Source of the DNA: Steroidobacteraceae bacterium | GTDB lineage: Bacteria > Pseudomonadota > Gammaproteobacteria > Steroidobacterales > Steroidobacteraceae | NCBI GenBank assembly: GCA_027531255.1 | Contig: JAPZRU010000018.1 | Location: forward strand, 62,001-126,000 | DNA: 64,000 bases | Direction: 5' to 3' | Part shown: positions 19,008-27,444 of the stretch, one piece after another | How the letters are laid out: the number at the start of each line of letters is the position of its first letter | Numbering within the stretch: the first letter of the stretch is position 1 | Translations under genes and position numbers: made by a program | Notes under the pieces: generated by a model | Database searches by the model: none | What the model was told of the DNA's origin: nothing | Seen by the model: the letters and a program-made list of their open reading frames with translations, nothing else

Positions 19008-20498
19008 GTGGCGGCGATCCCGCGCCGCGCTGCGCGGGGGCTGCCGCACTTGCGATCCGTGAACCGGCTCGGCTTCTGGCTGGGCCTCGCCGTCTTTCTC
19101 GTCCTCCGCACCCTCGACCCGCCCGCCGGTCTGGGCGACGCCGGCTGGGCGACCGCGGCCGTCGCCGCGCTGATGGCGGTCTGGTGGTTCACCGACGCGG
19201 TGCCCGCCGCCATCACCGGCACGCTTCCCTTCCTGCTGCTGCCGCTGCTGGGCGTCGCGAAGCCCGGCGAGGTCGCGGCCGACTACATGCACCCCGTGCT
19301 GTTCCTCGTGATCGGCGGCGCGATGCTCGGCCGCGCGCTCGAGAAGTGGGGCCTGCACCGCCGGCTCGCGATTGCCGTCGTTTCGCGGGCCGGCACGCGC
19401 CCCGAGCGCCTGCTGTTCGGGCTGATGGCCGCCACGGCGTTCGTGTCGATGTGGGTCAACAACTCGGCGACCACCGTGATGATGCTGCCGATCGCGGGCG
19501 CGCTCGCGCTGGCCGCGCGCGGCGCCGAGGGCGAGGACCGCGACGCGCGCAACTTCGGCGCGGCGCTCGCGCTCTCGGTCGCGGTAGCGTCGAACATCGG
19601 CGGCTTCGCCACGCCGGTCGGCACGCCGGTGAACCCGGTCGCGATCGGGCTGATCGACCAGCACTTCGGCGTCCGGATCGGCTTCGCCGAATGGATGGCC
19701 TTCGGCGTGCCGATCATGCTCGCCGCGCTGCCGGCGGCGTGGTGGTTCATCGCCCGCGTCGTGCTGCCGTTCCGGCTGCCCGCGCTCGCGCCCGCCGACG
19801 TGCTGGCCGCGATCGGGGCGCAGGCCGGACAGGCGGCGCCCTGGAGCGGCCCGGAGCGGCGCGTGCTGGCGTTGCTGCTCGCGACGGCGGCCGGCTGGGT
19901 GACGCTCCCGCTGTACGAGAAGCACCTCCCGGGGGTGACGGACGCTGCGCTCGCCGTGGGCGCGGCGCTGCTGCTGTTCGTGCTGCCGAGCGGTGCCCGA
20001 GGCACGGGGTCCGCGAGCGGGCCGCTGCTCGAGTGGCACGATGCGCGCGACGCGCCGTGGTACCTCGTACTCCTGCTCGGCGGCGGCCTCGCGCTGGCGG
20101 ACGCCGTGGGCGGCACCGGCCTGAGCCGCTGGCTCGGCGCAGAGCTCCAGCAGCTCGCGCCTGCGCAGCTGTTCGCACTGGTGCTGGTGGTCACCGCGAT
20201 CTGCGTGCTGCTCACCGAGTGCTCGAGCAACCTCGGTACCGCCGCGACCTTCGTGCCGATCGCCGGCGCGCTGGCGATCGCCGCCGGCCACGACCCGGTG
20301 CCGGTCGCCCTGGCCGCCGGGCTCGCCGCGAGCTGGGGCTTCGCGAACCCCGCGGGCACGTCGTCGAACGCGATGGTGATCGGCACCGGCCGCGTGCGCG
20401 TGCCGGAGATGGCGGGAGTCGGCGCGCTGGTCGATCTCGCGGGCGTGGTGCTGATCGCTTGCGCGTGCGCCTGGCTGGTGCCGGTCGTGCTCGGCTGA
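19008..20498 (+). CDS. DASS (SLC13) family sodium/anion symporter
   Basis: 496 residues from GTG 19008 (a second in-frame GTG at 19059 would give 479). Eleven to twelve membrane segments are visible. The two re-entrant substrate/sodium motifs of the family can be seen: MWVNNSATTVMMLP near residue 150 and ECSSNLGTAATFVP near residue 405, together with GFATPVGTPVNP and FANPAGTSSNAM. Members take up dicarboxylates, citrate, sulfate or similar divalent anions with sodium; the specificity cannot be assigned. The 253 bp upstream (18755-19007) hold no gene that I can support. Confidence 0.88.
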   Translation: MAAIPRRAARGLPHLRSVNRLGFWLGLAVFLVLRTLDPPAGLGDAGWATAAVAALMAVWWFTDAVPAAITGTLPFLLLPLLGVAKPGEVAADYMHPVLFLVIGGAMLGRALEKWGLHRRLAIAVVSRAGTRPERLLFGLMAATAFVSMWVNNSATTVMMLPIAGALALAARGAEGEDRDARNFGAALALSVAVASNIGGFATPVGTPVNPVAIGLIDQHFGVRIGFAEWMAFGVPIMLAALPAAWWFIARVVLPFRLPALAPADVLAAIGAQAGQAAPWSGPERRVLALLLATAAGWVTLPLYEKHLPGVTDAALAVGAALLLFVLPSGARGTGSASGPLLEWHDARDAPWYLVLLLGGGLALADAVGGTGLSRWLGAELQQLAPAQLFALVLVVTAICVLLTECSSNLGTAATFVPIAGALAIAAGHDPVPVALAAGLAASWGFANPAGTSSNAMVIGTGRVRVPEMAGVGALVDLAGVVLIACACAWLVPVVLG

Positions 20499-20568: not shown

Positions 20569-20961
20569 TCAGGGCGTGACTGCGTGCACGGCCCGCTCCA
20601 GCCGCGCGCGGACTTCCTCGGCGTAACGGACGAGCGCCGCGTTCCCGGTGCGCTCGAGGCTCGTGACCGGGTCGATCGCGGCGATCTCGCACTCGCCGCC
20701 GCCCGCTTCCCGGACGATCACGTTGCACGGCAGCAGCACGCCGAGCTTGTCCTCGAGCTGCAGCGCCTCGTGCGCGATCTTCGGGTTGCACGCGCCGAGG
20801 ATCCGGTAGCCCGGAAACTCCGCGCCCAGCTTGGCCTTCAGCGTGGCCCGGACGTCGATGTCCGTCAGCACGCCGAAGCCCTCGGCCCTCAGTGCCTCCG
20901 TCACCCGCGACACGGCCGCGTCCAGCGGCAGCGCGGTGCGCTTCGCGATGTAGTAGCTCAT
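20569..20961 (-). CDS. DUF302 protein
   Basis: 130 residues. The DUF302 signature is clear: AEGFGVLTDIDVRATLKAKLG, YRILGACNPKIAHEALQLE and GVLLPCNVIV, with the two conserved cysteines in GACNP and LPCN. The fold binds an unknown ligand. DUF302 genes often travel with sulfur-handling and redox genes (established association, mechanism unknown). The start overlaps the RND permease stop as ATGA, so this is the last gene of a translationally coupled operon behind the RND transporter. Confidence 0.9.
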   Translation of the reverse strand: MSYYIAKRTALPLDAAVSRVTEALRAEGFGVLTDIDVRATLKAKLGAEFPGYRILGACNPKIAHEALQLEDKLGVLLPCNVIVREAGGGECEIAAIDPVTSLERTGNAALVRYAEEVRARLERAVHAVTP

Positions 20962-23900
20962 CTCGCGTACTGCTCCTTCGATGTGGCGGATTCGACCACC
21001 TGCGCCGCGCGGCGCCGCAGGTAGCCGTAGTAGAGGATCGGAATCACGACCAGCGTCAGGATCGTCGAGACGAGGATGCCGAAGATCAGCGAGACCGCGA
21101 GCCCGTTGAAGATCGGGTCGTCGAGGATGAACACCGCGCCGAGCATCGCGGCCAGGCCTGTCAGCGCGATCGGCTTCGCGCGCACCGCGCCGGCGCGGAT
21201 GACCGCGTCCGGCAGCTCGCGGCCTGCCGCGAGCTCCTGGTTGACGAAGTCCACCAGCAGGATCGAGTTGCGGACGATGATGCCGGCGAGCGCGATCATC
21301 CCGATCATCGAGGTCGCGGTGAACTGCGCGCCGAGCAGTGCGTGGCCGGGCATGATGCCGATCATTGTCAGCGGAATCGGCGCCATGATCACGAGCGGCA
21401 CCGCGTACGAGCGGAACTGCGCAACCACCAGCAGGTAGATGAAGACGAGGCCGACCGCGTACGCCGCGCCCATGTCGCGGAAGGTCTCGTAGGTGATCTG
21501 CCACTCGCCGTCCCACTTGATCGCAGGGCCGGTGGTGTCCAGCGGCTGCGAGATGAAGTACTGGTCGATCTCGACGCCGCCGGCGGACGGCAGCGGCGCA
21601 CGGCCGTCACCGATGGCGCCGACCAGCGCGAACATGCCGTACAGCGGGCTGTCGAGCCGGCCCGCTTCGTCGCCGAACACGAATACCACCGGCAGGCCGT
21701 CCTTGCGGTAGCGCGTCGGGTCGCGCGGCACGCGCTCGACCGCTACCAGTTCGGTCAGGGGTACGCGCGCACCACTGGCGGCGCGCACGGTCAGCAGCAG
21801 CGCCCGGTCGAGCGCGGCCTTCTCGCCGACGGGCAGTTCGAGCCGCACCGGGATCGGCGCCTGCTCGCGGCCGACGTGCACGAACGTGGCGTCGAGGCCG
21901 CCGAGGCCGAGCGCGAGCGTCTCCGCCACCGCGGCCTGCGAGACGCCGAGACGCGCGGCGCGCACGCGGTCCACCGCGACGACGTAGCGATGCGAGTCGG
22001 CCTCGGCGGTGGTGTCGGTGTCCACGACGTCCGGCGTCGCACGGAACGCGCGCTCGAGTTCCCGCGCCAGACGGCGCTGCGCTTCGTAGTCCGGCCCGTA
22101 GACCTCCGCCACCAGCGGCGCCATCACCGGCGGGCCGGGCGGCACCTCGACGATCTGCACGCGTGCGCCGTGGCGCTCCGCGATCGCCGCGACCGCCGGG
22201 CGCACCGCGCGCGCGATGTCGTGGCTCGCGCGGTCGCGTTGCGCCTTGTCGACCAGATTGACCTGCAGGTCGCCGAGTTCCGGCGCGCGCCGCAGGTAGT
22301 ACTGCCGGACGAGGCCGTTGAAGTTGATCGGCGCGGCGGTGCCGGCGTAGGCCTGCCAGTCCGTGACCTCGGGGACCTCGCGGATCACCGCGGCCATCTC
22401 GCCGAGGACGCGCGCGGTGTCCTCGACCGCCGCGCCCTCGGGCATGTGCAGCACGACCTGGAATTCGCTCTTGTCGTCGAACGGCAGCATCTTCAGCACG
22501 ACCCACTGCAGGCCGGCCATCGAGACGGCCGCGAGGATCGCGACCAGCGTGCCGAGGTAGAGCCGGTGCCGCGCCCTGCGGGCGCCGGATCCGGCGAGGA
22601 ACGGCGCCATGACGCGGCGGAAGAACGGGTCCAGGGCGCGGTCGAGCGCGCTCGGGGTTGGCGCGTGCACGGGCATCGCAGCGCCCGGGCCCGCGCTCGC
22701 GCCCGCGCCGCCGTGCCCGCCGCCGAGCAGCCTCATCGCCATCCACGGCGTCAGCACCAGCGCGACCGCCAGCGAGATCAGCATGCCGAGGCTCGCATTG
22801 ATCGGGATCGGGCTCATGTATGGGCCCATCAGCCCCGAGACGAAGGCCATCGGCAGCAGCGCCGCTATGACGGTGAAGGTCGCGAGGATCGTGGGGCCGC
22901 CGACCTCGTCCACGGCCGGCGGGATCGCCTCGAGCAGGCTTCGCCCGCCCATCGCCATGTGACGGTGGATGTTCTCGACCACGACGATCGCGTCGTCGAC
23001 CAGGATGCCGATCGAGAAGATCAGCGCGAACAGCGACACGCGGTTGATCGTGAAGCCCCAGGCCCACGAGGCGAACAGCGTGATCGCGAGCGTGACGAGG
23101 ACCGCCGCGCCGACCACGACCGCCTCGCGCCAGCCGAGCGCGAAGGCCACCAGCAGCACGACGCACGCGGTCGCGAACGCGAGCTTCTGGATCAGCTTCT
23201 GCGCCTTGTCGTTCGCGGTGAGGCCGTAGTCGCGCGTGACCGTGACCTCCACGCCGTCGGGGATCACGGTACCGCGGAGCCGCTCGACGCGGTCGTTGAC
23301 CGCGCTCGTGACGTCCACCGCGTTCGTGCCGGGCTGCTTCGAGACCGCGATCGTCACCGCCGGCGATTCGCCGGCGAGTTCGATCCGGCTCTGCGCGGCG
23401 GCGGGGCCCGCGCCGAACCATACGTACTGCTCGGGTTGGTCGGCGCCGTCGGTGATGGCGGCGACGTCCGAGAGGTAGACCGGGCGGCCGTCGGCCAGGC
23501 CGATCACGAGTTCGGCGACGTCGTCGCGGCCGGCGAGGAACTCGCCGGCGGTGACCGGGCGATCACCGCCTTCGCCCACCACGCTGCCCGCGTGCGTCAC
23601 GACGTTGGCCGCACGCAGCGCACCGAGCAGCTCGGTGGCGGTCAGGCCGTGGCCCGCGAGGCGCGCCGGGTCGAGCTGCACGTGGACGACGCGCTCCGGC
23701 GCACCGACCGAGTAGACGTTGCGCGTGCCGCGGATCCGCTTGAGCTCCTCCTCGAGCGAGCGCGCGACCAGGGCGAGTTCCGCACCGCCCCGCGCCGGGT
23801 CTGCCGTCCACAGCGTCAGCGTGACCACCGGCACGTCGTCGATGCCGCGAGGCTTCACGAGCGGCTCGCCGATGCCGAGCCCCGGCGGCCGCCAGTCGCG

Positions 23901-24311
23901 GTTGGAGTAGATCGCGTTGTACAGCCGCACGAGCGCCTCGTTGCGCGCGATGCCGACCTCGAACTCGACGGTGAGCACCGCGCTCCCCGGCCGGGAGACG
24001 GCGTAGACGTGCTTCACGTCCGAGATCTCGCCGAGCACACGCTCCATCGGAGCGGCCGCGAGACTCTCGACCTGGGCCGCGGAGGCGCCGGGGAACGGGA
24101 TGATCACGTTCGCGAACGTGACCTCGATCTGCGGCTCTTCCTCGCGCGGCGTGACGAGCACCGCGAACAGTCCGAGCAGCAGGCCGAAGATCCCCAGCAG
24201 CGGCGTCAGCTGGTTGCGGTAGAACGCGCGCGCGACGCGCCCGCCGAAGCCGAGGGGCACGGCGTCGGAGCCCGGCGCGGCCGAGGTGCCGGGCGAGGCG
24301 TGCCCGCTCAC
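20958..24311 (-). CDS. RND efflux permease
   Basis: 1117 residues with the RND layout: a membrane helix, a large periplasmic domain, TM2-6, a second periplasmic domain and TM8-12. The TM4 proton-relay pair is intact (GILVDDAIVVVENIHRH), and TM10 carries GIIVRNSILLVDFVNQ, where an arginine replaces the lysine of AcrB. This is a branch of the acriflavin/HAE-1-like group distinct from AcrB and lacking the metal-binding methionines of CusA. A cytoplasmic N-terminus of about 35 residues is rich in G/A/P. The GTG start overlaps the adaptor stop (GTGA). With the upstream adaptor it would form an inner-membrane pump; no outer-membrane TolC gene is nearby. Confidence 0.93.
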   Translation of the reverse strand: MSGHASPGTSAAPGSDAVPLGFGGRVARAFYRNQLTPLLGIFGLLLGLFAVLVTPREEEPQIEVTFANVIIPFPGASAAQVESLAAAPMERVLGEISDVKHVYAVSRPGSAVLTVEFEVGIARNEALVRLYNAIYSNRDWRPPGLGIGEPLVKPRGIDDVPVVTLTLWTADPARGGAELALVARSLEEELKRIRGTRNVYSVGAPERVVHVQLDPARLAGHGLTATELLGALRAANVVTHAGSVVGEGGDRPVTAGEFLAGRDDVAELVIGLADGRPVYLSDVAAITDGADQPEQYVWFGAGPAAAQSRIELAGESPAVTIAVSKQPGTNAVDVTSAVNDRVERLRGTVIPDGVEVTVTRDYGLTANDKAQKLIQKLAFATACVVLLVAFALGWREAVVVGAAVLVTLAITLFASWAWGFTINRVSLFALIFSIGILVDDAIVVVENIHRHMAMGGRSLLEAIPPAVDEVGGPTILATFTVIAALLPMAFVSGLMGPYMSPIPINASLGMLISLAVALVLTPWMAMRLLGGGHGGAGASAGPGAAMPVHAPTPSALDRALDPFFRRVMAPFLAGSGARRARHRLYLGTLVAILAAVSMAGLQWVVLKMLPFDDKSEFQVVLHMPEGAAVEDTARVLGEMAAVIREVPEVTDWQAYAGTAAPINFNGLVRQYYLRRAPELGDLQVNLVDKAQRDRASHDIARAVRPAVAAIAERHGARVQIVEVPPGPPVMAPLVAEVYGPDYEAQRRLARELERAFRATPDVVDTDTTAEADSHRYVVAVDRVRAARLGVSQAAVAETLALGLGGLDATFVHVGREQAPIPVRLELPVGEKAALDRALLLTVRAASGARVPLTELVAVERVPRDPTRYRKDGLPVVFVFGDEAGRLDSPLYGMFALVGAIGDGRAPLPSAGGVEIDQYFISQPLDTTGPAIKWDGEWQITYETFRDMGAAYAVGLVFIYLLVVAQFRSYAVPLVIMAPIPLTMIGIMPGHALLGAQFTATSMIGMIALAGIIVRNSILLVDFVNQELAAGRELPDAVIRAGAVRAKPIALTGLAAMLGAVFILDDPIFNGLAVSLIFGILVSTILTLVVIPILYYGYLRRRAAQVVESATSKEQYAR

Positions 24312-25408
24312 GGCGCGACCCCGGCGCGCCGCCGGGCGGCCTCGATCGGGTTCGCGGCGATGCGCTCTCCGGCGGCGAGGCCCGCGAGCACCTCGACCTC
24401 GTCACCGTAGCGACGACCCAGCCGCACCTGCCGGAACTGCAGCCGGCCGTCGGCGCCGACCACGTAGACCGCGGTGACTTCGCTGCGGACGGCCACGGCC
24501 GAGGTCGGGATCGTCGGCACGGCGGCAGCGCCAGGCATCGCGTCCGTGGCCGGCGCGGCGCCCGCGAAGGCGACCTTCGCGTACAGGCCCGGATAGGCGC
24601 CCGCCGCGCCCGGCGGCAGGTCCACGCGCACGCGCACCGTGCTGGACTGCGCCGTAGCCGCGGGGAACACGGTGATCGCACCGGCCTCGTGGCGACGCTC
24701 GCCGACCCAGACGACGGCGTTCGCCTGCTCGCCGGCCGCCCGGAGCACACCCGCGACCGCACTCGGCACGTCCACCACCACGCGCAGGCGCTCGAGCGCC
24801 GCCACTTCCATCAGCGGCTGGCCCGGCGCCACCGCCTCGCCGGGCTCGACGTGCCGCCGCGTGACGACCGCCGCGTACGGCGCCCGAAGTGCGGTGTAGC
24901 CCGCGTTCTCCCGCGCGGCCGCGACGCCGGCCTCGGCCGCGTCCAGCTGGGCCGCGGCGGCGTCGCGCTCCGCGGTGGCGCGGTCGAGCGCCGACCGGGC
25001 CACGAGACGCTTCGCGTACACGTCGCGGATGCGCTCGTATTCGGCGGCGGCCACCGTGTTCCGCGCCTGCGCCTCGCGCAGCGCCTGCTGCGCCTGGCGC
25101 AGCCCAGCGCGCTGCTCCACGCCGGCGAGCCGCAGCAGCAGTTCGTCGGCGCGCACCCGGTCGTCCACGTCGTGCAGCACCTCCGCCACTCGCCCGGCGG
25201 TCTGCGCCGTGAGCGTGGCGTGGCGCACCGCCTCGATGCTGCCGTCGTAGCGGCGCTCCGCGCCGGTGCCGACGCGCACTTCGAGCGTCGGCAGCGCGGC
25301 ACCCGCCGACGCCGGCGCTGCGGCGGGCGGCGCCTCGCCGCAGGCGGCGAGCACGCCGGCGGCGGCGAGGACCAGCACGGCGGCGAGGCCGGCGGGGCGC
25401 ACGGGCAT
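24308..25408 (-). CDS. RND periplasmic adaptor (HlyD/MFP family), lipoprotein
   Basis: About 366 residues. The start at 25408 gives a lipoprotein signal (MPVRPAGLAAVLVL ... GVLAACGEAPP, cysteine at residue 23). Then come the lipoyl halves, an alpha-helical hairpin of about 90 residues rich in Q/A/E (AGLRQAQQALREAQARN), the beta-barrel and a membrane-proximal domain (GLQFRQVRLGRR-like block near the C-terminus). It links the permease to an outer-membrane channel. The start overlaps the DUF2892 stop (TGATG) and its stop overlaps the permease start, so the three are coupled. Confidence 0.92.
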   Translation of the reverse strand: MPVRPAGLAAVLVLAAAGVLAACGEAPPAAAPASAGAALPTLEVRVGTGAERRYDGSIEAVRHATLTAQTAGRVAEVLHDVDDRVRADELLLRLAGVEQRAGLRQAQQALREAQARNTVAAAEYERIRDVYAKRLVARSALDRATAERDAAAAQLDAAEAGVAAARENAGYTALRAPYAAVVTRRHVEPGEAVAPGQPLMEVAALERLRVVVDVPSAVAGVLRAAGEQANAVVWVGERRHEAGAITVFPAATAQSSTVRVRVDLPPGAAGAYPGLYAKVAFAGAAPATDAMPGAAAVPTIPTSAVAVRSEVTAVYVVGADGRLQFRQVRLGRRYGDEVEVLAGLAAGERIAANPIEAARRRAGVAP

Positions 25409-25611
25409 CACTCGAACGCGAGGCCCGGGCGGGCGCCGAGCCGCCGCAGGATCAGCGCGAGCGGGCAGAAGCGCGTGAACGCGGCCTGCAGCAGGTTGGC
25501 GCCGACGAAGGCGGTCAGCCACAGCCAGTTCGGGTGCGCGAAGTACGCCGCCAGCAGGCTCAGCAGGATCACGCTGCCCGCGAAGGCCATCACGATGCGG
25601 TCGATGCTCAT
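25408..25611 (-). CDS. DUF2892 / YgaP-type membrane protein
   Basis: 67 residues with two membrane helices (MAFAGSVILLSLLAAYFA and WLTAFVGANLLQAAFT) and the typical ending FCPLALILRRLG. DUF2892 is the membrane part of YgaP rhodaneses; in bacteria with BigR/YgaV regulators it is commonly the first gene under their control. Here it opens the operon that contains the RND system, 61-70 bp from the operator region. Confidence 0.9.
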   Translation of the reverse strand: MSIDRIVMAFAGSVILLSLLAAYFAHPNWLWLTAFVGANLLQAAFTRFCPLALILRRLGARPGLAFE

Positions 25612-25653
25612 CGGTTCGCTCCCGGCGGCCCCCGGGCCACCTGTCGGAGCGAA

Positions 25654-25697
25654 TACTATATTAGGATTTACTAAATTAGTAGATGCTGGTTTATACT
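25654..25697. promoter_or_regulatory. Divergent promoter and ArsR-family operator
   Basis: A sharply AT-rich island in GC-rich DNA. It contains TTAG-N6-CTAA (25661-25674) and a 13-bp perfect inverted repeat, TACTAA-A-TTAGTA (25669-25681). On the minus strand TATAGT (25659-25654) is a -10 for the DUF2892 operon; on the plus strand TATACT (25692-25697) is a -10 for the regulator. The repeats overlap both promoters, as expected for autorepression by an ArsR-type dimer. The TTAG/CTAA half-sites resemble BigR/YgaV operators (from memory of the family). Confidence 0.75.
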
Positions 25698-25757
25698 GAC
25701 TCGCAGCAGGTGACCGGGCGGTCCAATCGACCGCGGCCGCCCCAGGAGGAAGCCCGG

Positions 25758-26099
25758 ATGAACGCGCGTGCCGCCGAGCTCGCGGAAATGGCCCGCCACG
25801 CGGACGCCGCCGCCGCGCTGCTGAAGGCGCTCGCGAACGAGCACCGGCTGCTGGTGCTCTGCGCGCTCGTCGACGGCCCGAAGTCGGTCGGCGAACTGAA
25901 CGATCGAGTCGACCTCAGCCAGTCCGCGCTCTCGCAGCACCTGGCGGTGCTGCGCGCGGCCGGCATCGTGGCCACGCGGCGCGAGGCACAGACGATCTGG
26001 TACGCGCTGGCCCAGGGCCCCGCGGCGGCCGTGATGGAAGCGCTGCACGCTGCGTACTGCGCGCCGCGCAAGGCAAGGAGCCGGCACACCCGCGGCTGA
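25758..26099 (+). CDS. ArsR/SmtB regulator of BigR/SqrR persulfide-sensor type
   Basis: 113 residues. The start at 25758 is fixed by AGGAGGA ending 7 nt upstream. Winged helix: LLKALANEHRLLVLCALVDG, recognition helix SQSALSQHLAVLRAAG, wing VATRREAQTIWYAL. It lacks metal-site residues such as ELCVCDL. It has exactly two cysteines, C35 in RLLVLCAL and C101 in HAAYCAPR, 66 residues apart; this is the place and spacing of C41/C107 in SqrR and C42/C108 in BigR, which form a polysulfide bridge with sulfane sulfur. It therefore probably senses persulfides or oxidants and controls the divergent DUF2892-RND-DUF302 operon and itself. Confidence 0.9.
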   Translation: MNARAAELAEMARHADAAAALLKALANEHRLLVLCALVDGPKSVGELNDRVDLSQSALSQHLAVLRAAGIVATRREAQTIWYALAQGPAAAVMEALHAAYCAPRKARSRHTRG

Positions 26100-26219: not shown

Positions 26220-26381
26220 GTGCCGACGTACCACGACCAGCGCCGCTGGGGCGCGCGCTGGCTACTGCTGGGCGAAGTCGACACGCGAGGCTCGCACGTC
26301 GTCATGCGGCAGCGAGCCGATGCGGAAGGCGCGCTGGAGGCCGAGTGGCTGCGCGTCAGCGCGGTACCGCAGGCGCGCTGA
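26220..26381 (+). CDS. Possible small hypothetical protein
   Basis: A 53-codon frame from GTG 26220 whose translation has normal composition (MPTYHDQRRWGARWLLLGEV ... WLRVSAVPQAR), unlike the arginine-rich frames around it. Codons in the same frame extend coding-like sequence upstream to about 26202, and the ATG at 26198 is one base out of frame, so a frameshift or deletion near the start is possible. It overlaps the end of the convergent ChaN-like gene by 26 bp. No family recognised. Confidence 0.3.
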   Translation: MPTYHDQRRWGARWLLLGEVDTRGSHVVMRQRADAEGALEAEWLRVSAVPQAR

Positions 26382-27444
26382 CGGCCGCGGCCTCCGCCGG
26401 CCGCCGCAGGCGCTCCAGCTGCTCCCGGAACTGCCGGCACGGATCGGGCTCGTCCACGCGCGGCGTGAACCAGACGAAGTCGAACGCGTCCGCGGGCTCG
26501 TAGCCGGCGGGGTCGTCGCGGCCGGGCACGACCTCCACGAAGCCCACGACCAGCACGGACTCGGCACCCAGCAAGGTCGGCACGCCATAGTCGCGCCGCG
26601 CGTGGCCGTTGCCCGCGACCAGCACGGCGAGCGGCGCGGCGTCGGCCGTCGCCGCAGCCACGAGAGTCCCCGCGGCGCCGAGGGCGTCCCGCGCGCGCTC
26701 GAGAGTCGCCGCCATCGCCGCGTCGCGCAGTCGCTGCGCGTGGACCATCGGGATCGTGCGCTCCGGCGGCAGGTGGCCGCAGTGCCCGGCCACGAGATCC
26801 TCGATCAGCCGCTCGCGTCCGACGGCCGGCAACGCCGCCTCGGCGCGGGCGGCCCACGCCGCCTCGTCGGCCGCGGGTTGGCCGCCGCCCGCCAGTACGC
26901 GGATCCGCCGCGCCCCCGGGTTGCCCGCGTACACCGGGGCGCCCACGGCGTCGGCCGCCGCGAAGACGGGAGCGTACAGCGCGTAGTTCGGCCAGCCGCC
27001 CTGCGCCCAGCCGACGCGCCCACCGAGCTCGAGGCCGAAATCCGTACACTCCCGCGCGCAGGCGTCGATCGCCGACTGCGCCGGGAAGTCGAGCTGCTCC
27101 GCGACGACCGCTACGCGGCGCCCGCGCTCCGCCGCGGCCGCGATCAGCCGGCCCTGCAGGCGATGGTGCTCCGGGTTGCCGTGGCGCTCGCCGAGCAGCA
27201 GGTAACGCACCTGCGCGGCGCGCGCGAGCAGCGCCGCAGCGTCGACGAAGCGGCGTTCCCGCGTCGACCAGACGCGGCCCGCGAGCGCGTGATCGGCGTG
27301 CAGCAGGCGCACTTCCCCCGGCGCGACGCCCGTCGCCGCCGCGCTCGCCGCGAGCGGCGCGATCGCACCGAGTGCGGCGGCCGCGAGGATCGTGAGCCGC
27401 CGCACCCGCGCCCACGCCCGGTTTCGTCGCGTCGTGTCGGACAT
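26356..27444 (-). CDS. ChaN-like haem-binding / Tiki-superfamily protein
   Basis: 362 residues. A basic N-terminus and hydrophobic stretch (RRLTILAAAALGAIAPLAASAAA) form a signal peptide without a lipobox. Family motifs follow: YLLLGERHGNPEHHRLQ near residue 80, a central domain with GHCGHL, and LAVLVAGNGHARRDYGVP near residue 290. ChaN of Campylobacter is an iron-regulated lipoprotein that binds two haems; the wider superfamily includes proteases of the Tiki/TraB type with catalytic E/H pairs. Location periplasmic. It is divergent from the Dcp peptidase gene, 111 bp apart. Confidence 0.85.
   Translation of the reverse strand: MSDTTRRNRAWARVRRLTILAAAALGAIAPLAASAAATGVAPGEVRLLHADHALAGRVWSTRERRFVDAAALLARAAQVRYLLLGERHGNPEHHRLQGRLIAAAAERGRRVAVVAEQLDFPAQSAIDACARECTDFGLELGGRVGWAQGGWPNYALYAPVFAAADAVGAPVYAGNPGARRIRVLAGGGQPAADEAAWAARAEAALPAVGRERLIEDLVAGHCGHLPPERTIPMVHAQRLRDAAMAATLERARDALGAAGTLVAAATADAAPLAVLVAGNGHARRDYGVPTLLGAESVLVVGFVEVVPGRDDPAGYEPADAFDFVWFTPRVDEPDPCRQFREQLERLRRPAEAAAVSAPAVPR

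Follow-up and report, generated by a model that had tools for sequence, protein, structure and literature searches.

ArsR-family regulators of the group that contains HlyU, BigR, SqrR, YgaV and sHdrR have in common an HTH_5 fold, a pair of cysteines 66 residues apart and an AT-rich operator with TTAG/CTAA half-sites. In the characterised members sulfane-sulfur donors link the two shared cysteines by a tetrasulfide bridge (PMC12423496), and HlyU loses its DNA binding with glutathione persulfide and keeps it with H2O2 (PMC10509353). The genes that these regulators control are Blh, sulfide-quinone reductase (SQR), Sox or sHdr genes. Within a 64,000-nucleotide stretch of the genome of a Steroidobacteraceae bacterium (contig JAPZRU010000018.1, positions 62,001 to 126,000; hereafter the window), a regulator with the same three features is instead found beside an operon for an efflux pump of the resistance-nodulation-division (RND) family. 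To judge from the genes and sites around it and its relatives, this pump probably helps cells to get rid of toxic sulfur compounds, and it is likely that the locus as a whole represents a sulfide/sulfane-sulfur stress operon, which would be derepressed by persulfides and would export a product of sulfur stress.

Most work on RND pumps has dealt with antibiotics, and for many of these pumps the natural substrate is not known. The pairing of such pumps with sulfane-sulfur ArsR regulators has already been published, as a single sentence accompanied by Figure S2 and Table S1 (PMC12423496), as has one H2S-induced operon (PMC5358917). The former describes the same regulator-RND pairing as in the window, its section 2.1 naming no subfamily, operator or substrate. 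In the latter, the Azospira suillum PS genes Dsui_3440-3443 (an unknown gene, an efflux pump, SQR and an RND adaptor) are the one operon that Bar-seq singled out and are highly expressed with H2S, under which an unlinked DUF2892 gene also rises about tenfold. The likeness to the window is one of gene content alone, in that Dsui_3440-3443 brings adaptor, RND pump and SQR together in one H2S-induced operon, whereas the operon described here lacks SQR and includes DUF2892 and DUF302. The Allochromatium genes Alvin_0013-0015, annotated as CzcA type, were not used as support (PMC11267869). A search of the open-licence PMC literature found no paper that defines a sulfide-linked RND subfamily or deals with the operator or cargo of one, and nothing that combines DUF302, RND and sulfide.

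The regulator, its operator and the pump operon

The regulator gene (25758-26099, plus strand; 113 aa as translated from the ATG at 25758; PF01022 52.8 bits) diverges from four minus-strand genes in the order DUF2892, adaptor, RND permease and DUF302, a gene content that an earlier reading of the sequence alone had proposed and that PF11127, TIGR01730, PF00873 and PF03625 bear out. The first encodes a DUF2892/YgaP-like transmembrane protein of 67 aa (25408-25611; PF11127 54 bits) and the second an RND periplasmic adaptor, or membrane fusion protein (24308-25408; TIGR01730 172.6 bits, exceeding the cut-off of 94.9), which is of the lipoprotein type by sequence with a lipobox-like LAAC close to its start. 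These are followed by the 1117-aa permease (20958-24311; PF00873 470 bits) and by a DUF302 protein of about 130 aa (20569-20961; PF03625 87.9 bits) that is the sole match to its family in the host genome. Because neighbouring genes share a few bases at each junction, the four are likely to form one operon. The DUF2892 protein and its relatives have a Phe-Cys-Pro motif, found in 69 of the 90 DUF2892 proteins called beside related pumps, and the cysteine of this motif might be a persulfide carrier.

The regulator contains exactly two cysteines, C35 and C101, and the 66-residue spacing claimed from the sequence holds both on translation and in phmmer alignments, where the two coincide with cysteines of HlyU chains. 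They match in position the cysteines with which HlyU and BigR sense, and the same spacing separates Cys42 from Cys108 in BigR (PMC5823870) and Cys50 from Cys116 in sHdrR (PMC12423496). On the NCBIfam BigR model NF040642 the regulator scores 100.7 bits against a cut-off of 155, and it is for this reason placed in the broader group and not as BigR. The closest solved chains are HlyU 4k2e (E 1.1e-27), then the ArsR-family regulator 6o8l (which we take to be SqrR), BigR, NolR and YgaV. On the combination of fold, nearest chains, cysteine pair and upstream operator it is assigned to the HlyU/BigR/SqrR-type ArsR group.

The predicted operator, TATATTAG-N6-CTAAATTAG with TTAG/CTAA half-sites, occupies 25657-25684 (no strand assigned) between the divergent regulator and DUF2892 genes. 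Where relatives have a divergent two-Cys regulator, the regions upstream of it share an AT-rich block, and the operator motif (28 positions, consensus TATATTAGnnnTTGCTAATTTAGnAA) was counted from 20 other loci with the window locus excluded from the counts, its seed having been picked by eye with all regions, the window's included, in view. With a motif score of 30.9 bits the site outscores every other position in the window, and when its intergenic region was shuffled 3000 times the maximum was 8.7 bits (0/3000 reach the site). Within the host genome (4.2 Mb, 95.6% complete) a scan allowing up to three mismatches matches 25657-25684 alone, and a reversed control pattern gives 0 matches. Moreover, ACTAAATTAGT within the site also occurs, letter for letter, in the probe for the V. 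cholerae hlyA operator given in PMC10509353. The sequence-only reading had this operator covering both divergent promoters; the site itself stands, but its coverage of the promoters was not confirmed, a sigma-70 consensus scan having found no promoter on either strand. Operator control of both promoters is plausible.

A distinct subfamily of RND permeases

How widely is this permease distributed, and what sets it apart from other RND pumps? Among 58 further genomes from relatives of the host, 21 have matches at 58% identity or more, some of them fragments; the next matches are two at 33-34%, followed by others at about 31% or less. Sampling across the phylum gives matches to the permease at E <= 1e-120 in 153 of 398 genomes, and the identities fall into two bands, group A at 53-65% and group B at 39-48%. 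A FastTree tree with 67 permeases (27 from A, 18 from B, 2 at 33-34% and 20 paralogs) separates A, B and the 33-34% rows from the paralogs with a local support of 100. On this tree A forms one group with the window permease inside it, B requires two changes, and a long branch leads to one of the control rows.

As in the HAE-type RND pumps MdtB, MexK and AcrB, the window permease combines PF00873 with the Asp pair of transmembrane helix 4 (TM4), here D439 and D440, but its relay Lys in TM10 is replaced by R1014. This relay position presumably corresponds to K940 of AcrB. In the alignment Arg stands there in 132 of 134 A rows (the remaining 2 being gaps), in 18/18 B rows and in both of the others, that is in every one of the 152 subfamily rows that have a residue at this place, whereas 19 of the 20 paralogs have Lys. 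On tree, relay residue and surroundings, which at the window are ArsR, DUF2892, DUF302 and the operator and include no SQR, the permease is assigned to a distinct, sulfide-linked RND subfamily defined in this analysis. The operator and the relay Arg provide sequence marks for finding such pumps.

Operators and neighbouring genes across the subfamily

Operators were counted as intergenic sites of more than 12 bits lying 0.7-4.2 kb upstream of the permease in 126 subfamily loci, after setting aside the 20 used for training and those with less than 1.5 kb upstream. Such a site is present in 60/126 of these untrained loci and in 0/20 of the paralog controls, the share by group being 35/55 for the named A loci, 6/13 for the A relatives, 13/37 for A in the phylum sample and 6/21 for B. 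The density of sites in the upstream band is about 17 times that elsewhere (155 in 425 kb vs 31 in 1427 kb). Where no ArsR gene is seen in the stretch, the operator is still present in 33 of 84 loci, some of these stretches being short so that the regulator may lie just beyond, and its presence at these pumps makes control by this regulator type look like a trait of the subfamily. Among the 60 ArsR genes called beside pumps, 41, spread over 40 of 156 loci, encode both cysteines, ten have Asn at position 35, and the other nine, of which B accounts for seven, are either truncated or without one aligned Cys.

A second type of ArsR protein, with Asn35 and a C-terminal LC-DLVCG-like motif, is seen at the loci labelled L020, L021, L022, L084, L100, L111, L113, L118, L165 and L166. 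Separately, the B regulators of L187, L188, L193, L196 and L198 keep the first Cys and have none at the aligned C101, most of them having a Cys a few residues earlier.

Gene neighbourhoods were compared from about 5 kb upstream to about 8 kb downstream of the pump, in 156 subfamily loci and in a control of 20 paralogous pump loci (28-31% identity, two from the host genome). The former consist of 79 named A loci (drawn from the best 80 among the matches listed, with contigs of short flanks kept, which lowers the counts), 19 A relatives, 37 of the 44 A places listed in the phylum sample, and 21 B loci hand-picked from roughly 100 listed. L042, whose contig equals in length the one that yielded L035 (G003:C1), was excluded throughout, and the fragments L023, L024, L029, L030 and L040 were left out of the neighbour counts. 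Genes were called by a codon-usage caller that misses some, so that the ArsR genes of L024, L031, L107 and L169 were found only by a raw open reading frame search. The families scored were those picked from an earlier neighbour clustering. For SQR a profile built without five shorter FAD proteins (about 375 aa) from the SQR cluster was applied at E <= 1e-60, and the one representative checked, that of L032, gives 544 bits to 3sz0, 'Sulfide-quinone reductase'. A Blh-type dioxygenase finds weak matches at two places in the host genome (35% across residues 37-199 and 42% across 124-210).

The test of co-occurrence across genomes, suggested when only the single locus was in view, came out in favour of a linkage, as ArsR, DUF2892, SQR and the operator all recur with the subfamily and are absent from the 20 paralog loci. 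Pooled, ArsR is found at 57, DUF2892 at 88 and SQR at 39 of the 156 loci, each against 0/20, and at least one of ArsR, DUF2892, SQR, dioxygenase and DUF302 at 96/156 against 0/20. The named A loci contribute 26 ArsR, 46 DUF2892, 18 SQR, 6 dioxygenase and 10 rhodanese; the A relatives 12 ArsR, 14 DUF2892, 7 SQR and 1 rhodanese; A in the phylum sample 7 ArsR, 16 DUF2892, 3 SQR and 11 rhodanese; and B 12 ArsR, 12 DUF2892, 11 SQR, 10 rhodanese and 1 dioxygenase. The control has rhodanese at 2 and TolC-like genes at 4 loci, and neither DUF302 nor dioxygenase at any. Fisher p values for the pooled family against the control are 6e-7 for DUF2892, 3e-4 for ArsR and 0.008 for SQR, and for A and B of the phylum sample only (58 loci) 3e-5, 0.002 and 0.016, figures that serve as guides since the genomes are related.

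A pump operon linked to sulfur, as the sequence-only reading had it, is supported by these recurrent sulfide genes and by the published H2S induction and fitness signal in Azospira (PMC5358917), and with subfamily linkage, operators and Azospira data the sulfur reading has become stronger than the sequence of one locus could make it. The part that fell away is DUF302 as a core operon member, which was rejected on its presence at just 8/156 loci (named A 3/79, relatives 0/19, phylum sample 1/37, B 4/21). Individual operons nevertheless combine several of these families: L145 reads ArsR / SQR-DUF2892-DUF302-adaptor-RND-OsmC, L201 has three rhodaneses, DUF302 and SQR, and L169 and L175 carry Sulf_transp, DUF6691 and a rhodanese-domain protein that closely resembles CoA-disulfide reductase. 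The order adaptor-SQR-RND-DUF2892 of L081 and L108 matches that of Dsui_3440-3443 (PMC5358917). OsmC-like genes lie near the pump at L017, L033, L045, L047, L049, L055, L057, L076, L090 and L145.

A further comparison concerns Vibrio. In V. cholerae vexLM is located on the small chromosome and has no substrate among the compounds tested (PMC10225521), and the two-Cys regulator VC_A0642 is listed in PMC12423496. The HlyU of a Vibrio-like genome (G301) shares 82% identity with the solved HlyU, and a second regulator of this genome shares 42% with it, the latter adjoining a group A pump on a 1.75-Mb contig, a place that can be likened to that of VexLM by location alone. The vexLM locus tags lie near VC_A0642, and on these tags membership of VexLM in the sulfide-linked subfamily is a possible lead. 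The gene run at L169 (G301:C2), a possible VexLM counterpart, is ArsR, Sulf_transp, DUF6691, adaptor, RND, DUF2892, rhodanese and TolC-like.

Proposed mechanism and alternatives

The mechanism that we infer covers binding to DNA, the sensing of persulfides, the way in which control runs and the substrate. In it the ArsR dimer would bind the operator and so repress the divergent DUF2892-adaptor-RND-DUF302 operon as well as the regulator gene itself. Persulfides would link C35 and C101 via a polysulfide bridge, the bridged repressor would leave the DNA, and the pump would be made. Adaptor and permease, together with an outer-membrane channel encoded elsewhere, would then expel a sulfur-stress product, for which polysulfide, zero-valent sulfur, or a persulfide or conjugate are candidates. 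The two-Cys HlyU-like regulator, the operator, the linkage to sulfide genes and the published Azospira H2S induction and Bar-seq signal (PMC5358917) indicate that this is probably how the locus works. Its two halves differ in standing: derepression by persulfides is very likely, and for a sulfur species as the cargo the chances are about even.

A subfamily with a common operator and common sulfur neighbours points to one physiological stress, and the reading can be extended to the whole RND subfamily, phylum-wide, as a dedicated exporter of zero-valent sulfur or polysulfide arising from SQR and other sulfide chemistry. This extension is tentative and on balance doubtful, as is the view, part of the same reading, that the relay Lys-to-Arg change and the persulfide-repressor operator mark such exporters. 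If sulfane-sulfur export were true, it would help to answer how SQR-bearing bacteria put sulfur outside the cell, a missing step, and orphan pumps, perhaps VexLM among them, could be explained.

Several observations weigh against a sulfur-exporting stress operon. No operator above 12 bits lies in the examined band at 66 of the 126 untrained loci, and 60 of the 156 subfamily loci have none of ArsR, DUF2892, SQR, dioxygenase and DUF302. Among the called ArsR proteins 19/60, some of them truncated calls, do not show the full cysteine pair, so sensor chemistry is not uniform. A search of the host genome for SQR, made without a positive control, gave no match. In A. suillum deletion of Dsui_3440-3443 left the rate of H2S oxidation unchanged, three other RND transporters also rose with H2S, and the authors proposed metal-sulfide export for the H2S-induced efflux pumps (PMC5358917). 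Finally, the permease resembles multidrug pumps, and sulfur therefore need not be the cargo.

This last point leads to the alternative that survives best, though it is unlikely: a general pump for lipophiles or antibiotics under reactive-sulfur control, where sulfane sulfur is a stress signal and the cargo no sulfur compound. The solved relatives of the permease are indeed multidrug pumps (the nearest at 223 bits), and its best matches are PF00873, where the general ACR_tran cut-off is exceeded, and the NCBIfam multidrug RND models, although on these it stays below the cut-offs (at best 438.5 of 1250 bits); titles in the literature also speak of sulfane sulfur acting on MarR-type antibiotic-resistance regulators. 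What recurs beside the subfamily, however, are sulfide and persulfide genes and not resistance genes, within a set of scored families chosen beforehand from clusters, and VexLM, a possible relative, is without a known substrate among the compounds tested (PMC10225521).

More improbable is a pump for metals or for metal-sulfide complexes arising under sulfide stress, which is what the authors of PMC5358917 suggested for their induced pumps, since the permease gains 202 of the 701 bits of the CusA/CzcA model TIGR00914 and the adaptor 124 of 319 on CzcB, scores on which a heavy-metal RND (CusA/CzcA) identity was rejected. That the regulator answers general oxidants, thiol reagents or other ligands instead of persulfides is very unlikely, for although the cysteines of BigR are open to sulfenylation and glutathionylation (PMC5823870) and E. 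coli ygaVP is derepressed by tributyltin (PMC9774250), HlyU responds to glutathione persulfide and not to H2O2 (PMC10509353) and the sole operator in the host genome sits at a pump of the sulfide-linked subfamily.

Flanking genes

Two genes border the locus without a sign of membership in the system. A DASS-family symporter gene (19008-20498, plus strand) converges on the operon from its downstream side, and past the regulator lies the gene for a ChaN-like haem-binding protein (26356-27444).

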